A stretch of 64,000 nucleotides of DNA, from positions 1-64,000 of the forward strand of contig NZ_JAOEGN010000012.1 in assembly GCF_025446935.1 (NCBI RefSeq), in the 5' to 3' direction. A program made the position numbers and the translations under genes. Positions 36,400-37,632 of this stretch are shown here, piece by piece (position 1 is the stretch's first letter; every line of letters starts with the position of its first letter). Origin of the DNA: Paracholeplasma vituli. Its GTDB lineage: Bacteria > Bacillota_I > Bacilli_A > Acholeplasmatales > UBA5453. The notes beneath the pieces were generated by a model. The model saw only the letters and a program-made list of their open reading frames with translations, was not told the DNA's origin and searched no databases.

Positions 36400-37632
36400 A
36401 TGTTAAATAATAATCAAAGCGAAGCTGTTATTACACAACACAAACGTGTATTTGTCGTTTCTGGTGCGGATACAGGTAAGACTACAGTCATATTCAATCG
36501 TATTAACCAGTTAATCGAGAATAAAGTCGATTCGTGTTCGATTTTATTCATCTCATTTACGAGAAGAACAATCAGCGACATAAAAATGAAGTTTAATCAG
36601 TGTGCTGATAATCCCGTAATAAAGACATTTCATGGGTTGGCATTTTCAACACTTAGTACTACTTTTTCAAAACAACTCGTTAATCATCAATCTGACTTAT
36701 TTATGGATTTTGATCAACCTACGCTCACCCAAATATTAGTCAAAAAACAAGAATTCAAAATCATGAATGTGTCAACCAAGCCAAAAACAGGTTATCAAAT
36801 GATTTTAGATGAAAATAACCTATTTGACTACCCTGATTTAGAGATTGATTACCTAAGCTACCTCAAGGATATAAACCACCAGAAGACCATTCAAAACCAG
36901 TATAAATACATCTTTGTAGATGAAGCCCAAGATATGTCAAAAATTCAGGTTGAAATTTTGAACCTTATGGTAAATGAAGATACACATCTCTTTTTTGTAG
37001 GTGATCCCGACCAATCGATTTATGGCTTTCGAGGATCGATACCCAATCAAGTTCGAATTCTCATTAAGCTATTCAAGTGTCATACCTATACCTTGGTGGA
37101 TTGTTACAGATGTACTAAATCGGTTTTAGAGGTTGCGAACAAGCTCATTGCACATAACACTAAAAGGGTTAAAAAAGACTTAGTACCTCATCAAAAGCAT
37201 CTTGGATTGGTTGAGTATCATCAGTTTAGTAATACTAAGAAAGAAGCCCTTTTTGTACTATCAAAAATTCGCGAATTTCTACATCAAAAAATGGCTCTAA
37301 CAGATATGGTTATTTTAGTTAGAAACCATTATATGTCGAATGATATAAAAACCTTACTGTCTGAGGGCTATTATAATGACATTGCTTGTATGTCGATTCA
37401 CCAGGCGAAAGGTCTAGAGTTCAAGATTGTTTTCATTATGGGTATTGAAGATGGACCGAATACATCTAGACGAGTTATTGAAGAAGAAAGACGGTTGATG
37501 TTTGTTGCTGTTACAAGAGCTAAAACGCATTTGATTATGACATCACCCTCCGAAACTCGAGTACCTAGATTTATCAAAGAAATGAAAATGATTATTATAA
37601 AACACAAAGGTGAGTTGTCAAATGTGATTTAG
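36400..37632 (+). CDS. miniature UvrD-like superfamily 1 helicase
   Basis: A 410-residue relative of PcrA with every ATPase/helicase motif but little else. Q-motif NNNQSEAV (3-10), [10 protein letters not shown] (21-29), Ia [14 protein letters not shown] (174-178), [15 protein letters not shown] (201-212), [22 protein letters not shown] (332-341) and VI VAVTRAK (369-375) are present. The 2B domain is essentially absent: only about 85 residues separate motifs IV and V, against roughly 250 in PcrA. Walker A has ADT where PcrA has AGS. The start has AGGGTGA upstream. It lies between pcrA and ligA, so it may be a divergent duplicate or an acquired gene that splits the usual pair. Function is unknown. 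Confidence 0.85.
36763..36783 (+). repeat. 21-base direct repeat, copy 2 (inside the mini-helicase gene)
   Basis: Identical to 36128-36148. Here it encodes MNVSTKP of the mini-helicase (residues 122-128). Confidence 0.85.

Follow-up and report, generated by a model that had tools for sequence, protein, structure and literature searches.

The 64,000-nucleotide stretch of Paracholeplasma vituli DNA analyzed here (the window) carries a gene for a short PcrA paralog, mini-PcrA, which is probably a functional, vertically inherited enzyme that acts as an unregulated, monomeric 3′–5′ single-stranded DNA (ssDNA) translocase with weak unwinding activity and serves in ssDNA clearing. Its motor is intact and conserved; subdomain 2B, the Tudor region, and the separation pin have been lost; the gene is under purifying selection in a conserved neighborhood; and its orthologs form a single clade. 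ATPase activity, polarity, a lack of autoinhibition, and the strand-clearing role would follow from this anatomy.

The mini-PcrA reading frame is open and intact, and its two RecA-like domains, with motifs I through VI, place the protein in the UvrD/PcrA/Rep (SF1A) superfamily. Its features are as follows:

36400–37632, forward strand: mini-PcrA, a 410-aa SF1A motor consisting solely of subdomains 1A, 1B (short), and 2A
36463–36486, forward strand: Walker A (motif I), GADTGKTT; Asp confined to the window copy, Lys and Thr kept
36919–36936, forward strand: motif II, DEAQDM; family consensus DEFQDT
36997–37035, forward strand: SF1 motif, residues 200–212
37102–37113, forward strand: motif IV, CYRC; family consensus NYRS
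37330–37398, forward strand: site in 2A where PcrA bears 2B, occupied in mini-PcrA by a short linker alone
37480–37521, forward strand: SF1 motif, residues 361–374
37543–37572, forward strand: shortened separation-pin hairpin, 9 residues shorter than in PcrA and spanning the UvrD Y621 position

The Pfam matches, UvrD-helicase (E 7e-40) and UvrD_C (E 1.5e-26), both lie well beyond their cut-offs, the latter being split across the missing 2B part. In the protein, GADTGKT occupies residues 22–28, TFH 76–78, DEAQD 174–178, CYRC 235–238, and HQAKGLEF 334–341, and the two further SF1 motifs are those listed above. Walker A reads GAGSGKT or GAGTGKT in nearly all relatives, and only the window copy has Asp in this motif, Ala and Met in DEAQDM, and two Cys in CYRC. 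Residues K27, T28, D174, E175, Q177, D202, R237, K337, E340, and R373 are invariant across 22 homologs. The AlphaFold model of mini-PcrA (mean pLDDT 88.4, pTM 0.85) aligns with the crystal structures of Rep, UvrD, and PcrA over 399–400 of its 410 residues (Z ~38, rmsd 2.2–3.2), which indicates that, as modeled, the remainder of the protein is a complete two-domain motor.

The largest loss relative to PcrA is that of subdomain 2B, about 175 residues, as seen from the span between motifs IV and V, which is 102 residues in mini-PcrA vs 277 in the PcrA encoded just upstream of it. This difference holds across the family, with spans of 92–115 residues in 28 minis vs 266–296 in 35 PcrAs. The original prediction had described a 410-residue protein with all SF1 motifs kept, an altered Walker A, and 2B essentially missing, and it proved accurate on each count: every motif was located in the frame, the GADTGKT form was seen with K27 and T28 retained, and the motif IV–V span is that of a protein without 2B. 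Subdomain 1B, measured from TFH to motif II, is 98 residues long vs 124 in the same-genome PcrA and thus ~26 residues shorter. The C-terminus, 36 residues past motif VI, has no Tudor match, so that the protein ends without the Tudor region, which in PcrA/UvrD docks the helicase on RNA polymerase. One mini protein, from G050 (L060:4979-6370), finishes in a Tudor-like tail that is similar to PcrA's own end. Against the NCBIfam model TIGR01073 (cut-off 911 bits), mini-PcrA scores 191 bits, and the full-length PcrA of the same genome itself reaches just 629.

The distance from motif VI to a conserved Arg-Phe is 16 residues in the window protein vs 25 in every PcrA measured. This hairpin comprises 13–17 residues in most minis, and a longer one is retained in those of genera g7, g13, and g14. 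The nine residues absent from mini-PcrA align to the separation-pin hairpin and include the position of UvrD Y621, the pin tyrosine (a check of the numbering placed the RRLYGKE tyrosine at residue 621 of a 720-aa enterobacterial UvrD).

Upstream and downstream of the mini gene, the window has the order glnS, pcrA, mini, ligA, uvrA, hprK, lgt:

32006–33637, forward strand: glnS (glutaminyl-tRNA synthetase), first gene in the conserved run
33677–35761, forward strand: pcrA, full length, 694 aa
35762–36399, forward strand: pcrA–mini gap, 638 bp, with homologs in three other genomes of the genus
35808–35827, forward strand: intrinsic terminator after pcrA, AGAGACCTTGAGGGGTCTCT followed by T6
37662–39659, forward strand: ligA (NAD-dependent DNA ligase), start at 37662 or 37671
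39652–42477, forward strand: uvrA

The mini gene thus lies between full-length pcrA and ligA, as had been proposed, and the suggested search for homologs at the same position in relatives found a conserved place across 28 loci. In almost all of these, the gene follows pcrA and precedes ligA, and nearly every locus examined has it adjoining pcrA, ligA, or both. A few of the 28 have 1.5–4 kb inserted downstream of pcrA, and in genus g18 other genes intervene before ligA. In the outgroup G014 (f3), pcrA and ligA are direct neighbors separated by 77 bp, and the mini gene is absent. An ABC-type ATPase reading frame of ~569 aa, weakly UvrA-like, adjoins the mini gene downstream in two g18 loci (L051, L060).

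This adjacency, together with a pcrA–mini spacing of ~20–40 bp in many relatives that suggests co-expression, is also what might be expected if the main job of mini-PcrA were to regulate full-length PcrA or to serve as its subunit, for instance in an activating or titrating heterodimer; UvrD-family helicases are indeed activated via dimerization or partners (PMC13238157). Such a role, which had been raised at the outset as that of a regulatory partner of PcrA, is nevertheless unlikely. The known dimer contact is 2B–2B and is impossible for a protein without 2B, a terminator and a 638-bp gap divide the two genes in the window genome, and the conserved catalytic residues show that mini-PcrA's own motor is under selection.

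The terminator that opens the gap, like the shortened separation-pin hairpin, goes beyond what the original prediction had described. Hairpin-plus-T-run sequences are visible at the matching position in G001 and G002. The gap measures ~560–640 bp in G000, G001, G003, and G002 and 22 bp in G005 of the same genus. The gaps of the former four are mutually homologous (z 3.3 to 12.9), and each, when compared in register with the first 600 nt of its own mini gene, has weak similarity to it (z 2.3, 5.1, 2.6, and 1.1; controls 0.6, -1.2, -0.8, and 0.3, with one cross-genome control at 4.1). A 53-nt direct repeat (75% identity, 20-nt exact core) occurs at almost equal offset in the gap (36108-36160) and in the coding sequence (36743-36795). 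A frameshift-tolerant protein alignment of the gap against the mini family was no better than shuffles, and no known RNA scored above the gathering score in the gap. That the gap is a decayed partial tandem copy of the 5′ half of the mini gene is plausible but not proven.

Orthologs of the mini gene are present throughout the acholeplasmas. Among the 65 genomes of families f1 and f4 that are at least 80% complete and lie outside the phytoplasma-like genus g20, 60 have an ortholog scoring above 300 bits. A further three (G068, G075, and G110) show partial matches, located in short open frames, which brings the total to 63 of 65, and no mini match was found in the two incomplete genomes G111 and G115. 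Every sampled genus of f1, the family to which the window belongs, has the ortholog, as does nearly all of the related family f4 apart from g20. There was no match at E≤1e-90 in the listed g20 genomes (0.5–0.9 Mb), in f3 genomes, or in 345+ other genomes of the class sampled. A scan of genome contigs was saturated with matches to ordinary PcrA/UvrD; the one named acholeplasma that it yielded was Peloplasma aerotolerans (G038; Acholeplasmatales), which carries the mini gene.

The phylogeny with PcrA that had been proposed as a check recovers the orthologous minis as a clade of their own (SH-aLRT 100). Its placement as the sister group of acholeplasma PcrA has support of only 86–89, and a tree with the minis outside all PcrAs of the order is not rejected (p-AU 0.63). 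The tree thus supports a single origin but not an exact time for it: the mini gene appears to have arisen once, in or before the acholeplasma ancestor. Because the PcrAs of g20 nest inside those of f4 in the tree, the absence of the mini gene from g20 is most simply explained as a loss.

In close pairs of genomes, differences fall mostly at codon position 3, and dN/dS is 0.11 (G038-G026), 0.14 (G032-G030), 0.12 (G024-G040), and 0.15 (G012-G009). These values, the conserved locus, and the identity comparison below led to the rejection of a decaying pcrA fragment free of purifying selection, the case named at the outset as one that would overturn the proposal. Everywhere, the mini gene outpaces pcrA and ligA in its rate of change, most strongly in the window's genus, where G000 and G001 are 56% identical in the mini protein, 91% in PcrA, and 83% in LigA. 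The suggestion of a duplicate under new selection is supported by this combination of one clade, purifying selection, a faster rate than PcrA or LigA, and a conserved place.

The rapid change in the window's genus could also mean that the ancestral role has been lost there and that the gene is drifting, a relaxed copy en route to a pseudogene. The low identity of the mini relative to its neighbors would suit such drift, as would the substitutions that motifs I, II, and IV show in the window copy alone and a G000–G001 dN/dS of ~0.21 vs 0.03 for pcrA, with dS near saturation. This outcome is nonetheless unlikely, given that every g1 genome in which the gene was read has it with an intact frame, that K27, T28, D174, E175, R237, and R373 are kept, and that dN/dS is still far below 1. 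The window copy, being off consensus in these three motifs, may be partly relaxed, but from its sequence it is more likely an altered enzyme in use than a dying gene.

A mobile or defense-related helicase had been offered as a further possibility, and it did not hold up: the gene looks vertically inherited, is surrounded by housekeeping genes, and has PcrAs as its closest relatives. One such helicase is GajB of the Gabija system, likewise a short UvrD-like protein, and GajB models are the best PADLOC matches of mini-PcrA (E 3e-55). These models are, however, matched by the whole UvrD family, and among solved structures PcrA and UvrD match at E 4e-36 to 3e-38 vs 1e-14 for GajB. Moreover, the mini gene sits among glnS, pcrA, ligA, and uvrA with gajA absent, so that it is not encoded with GajA, and it is near-universal and in place rather than patchy. 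A GajB-like defense function is accordingly highly improbable. Unlike mini-PcrA, GajB keeps two accessory subdomains, works with GajA, and has had no helicase or ATPase activity found (PMC10681800). As for a phage or plasmid origin, also rejected, tblastn matches were at most 31.5% identical, and the best among those listed extend over ~1.7–2.1 kb, as long as full UvrD-type genes.

The nearest relatives of mini-PcrA are the PcrAs of Acholeplasmatales and other Firmicutes, with which it shares the motor fold, motifs, an adjacent gene, and the nearest solved structures, and from which it differs in having no 2B, a short 1B, a short pin, no Tudor region, and a clade of its own. A natural 2B-less PcrA paralog is a kind already known. 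The closest precedent, PcrA^s (MPN340) of Mycoplasma pneumoniae, also from a mollicute and also encoded beside pcrA, keeps all SF1A motifs, lacks 2B, and has ATP-dependent helicase activity for which its Walker lysine is required, although it bound DNA poorly in gel shifts (PMC3720892). It was described in 2013 as unique to M. pneumoniae, and it has ~530 aa (1590 bp) and 47% identity to its own PcrA (PMC3720892). The acholeplasma minis, in contrast, are old, comprise 370–460 aa, are ~31–38% identical to PcrA in matched stretches, and have neighbors different from those described for MPN340. The 47% identity suggests an independent duplication, and on the published description of MPN340 the two lineages probably lost 2B independently. 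A search for PcrA^s in 248 Mesomycoplasma relatives gave no mini-like match, the best scores looking like ordinary PcrA. A third case, the UvrD-like protein of Alicyclobacillus contaminans (L082), resembles the minis in its ~444-aa core, lack of 2B, and shortened pin region and differs in falling outside the mini clade on a very long branch. Its existence means either that 2B was lost on more than one occasion or that proteins of this type are more common than the literature suggests.

What is new here is an order-wide, old, and vertically kept family, with extra loss of the pin and with fast-changing ATP-site motifs in the window's genus, and its breadth corrects the view left by the literature, in which a natural 2B-less SF1A paralog would be peculiar to M. 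pneumoniae. It was long disputed whether 2B acts in UvrD-family helicases as a catalytic part or as a brake, and most work on the question used engineered deletions. A whole order now offers natural 2B-less motors, with graded separation-pin lengths, beside full-length PcrA in one cell, and these allow a direct test of how the motor core acts alone and of why a reduced genome retains such a gene.

Rep itself keeps a full separation pin. The engineered E. coli Rep-delta-2B is, like mini-PcrA, an SF1A motor without 2B but is laboratory-made; deletion of 2B activates the Rep monomer, and 2B is now reviewed as an autoinhibitory domain (PMC13238157). An Srs2 pin mutant loses unwinding and keeps Rad51 stripping (PMC10709652). 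These precedents, together with the activity of PcrA^s and the anatomy of the protein, make mini-PcrA best read as an ssDNA translocase that is unregulated and unwinds weakly or not at all. The protein retains the full two-domain motor, presumably ATP-driven, and has shed the autoinhibitory 2B arm, part of 1B, and the Tudor region; most of the separation pin is gone as well in the family of the window and in some others. Freed of 2B, a monomer could start without dimerization or a partner, as a constitutively active 3′–5′ ssDNA translocase, and would strip proteins from ssDNA and unwind duplexes only weakly. UvrD and PcrA pin mutants lose just 40% and 25% of unwinding, respectively (PMC10709652), which means that helicase activity could survive with a short pin, and the longer hairpin in g7, g13, and g14 counts against the pin reading. 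More tentatively, acholeplasmas possibly keep a dedicated pin-poor, 2B-less SF1A translocase, a natural separation-of-function motor that strips proteins from ssDNA without unwinding DNA, with its ATP site being reshaped in the window's genus.

The cellular role in ssDNA clearing is a guess, with RecA filaments as one candidate substrate. No co-loss with RecA or nucleotide excision repair was seen, the phytoplasma-like genomes mostly keeping recA and uvrB; as recA is kept in most of these mini-less genomes, the pattern of gene loss gives a RecA role no backing. Matches to recA are stop-broken or split in several phytoplasma-like genomes (noted for G088, G089, G097, G105, and G107 of g20), and others have a whole recA. 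Open frames of ~90–108 aa that match the first 90 residues of UvrB only are found in G050 (C2:77699-77965), G062 (C5:146464-146733), G063 (C14:108553-108813 and 117485-117745), and G081 (C87:10928-11194).
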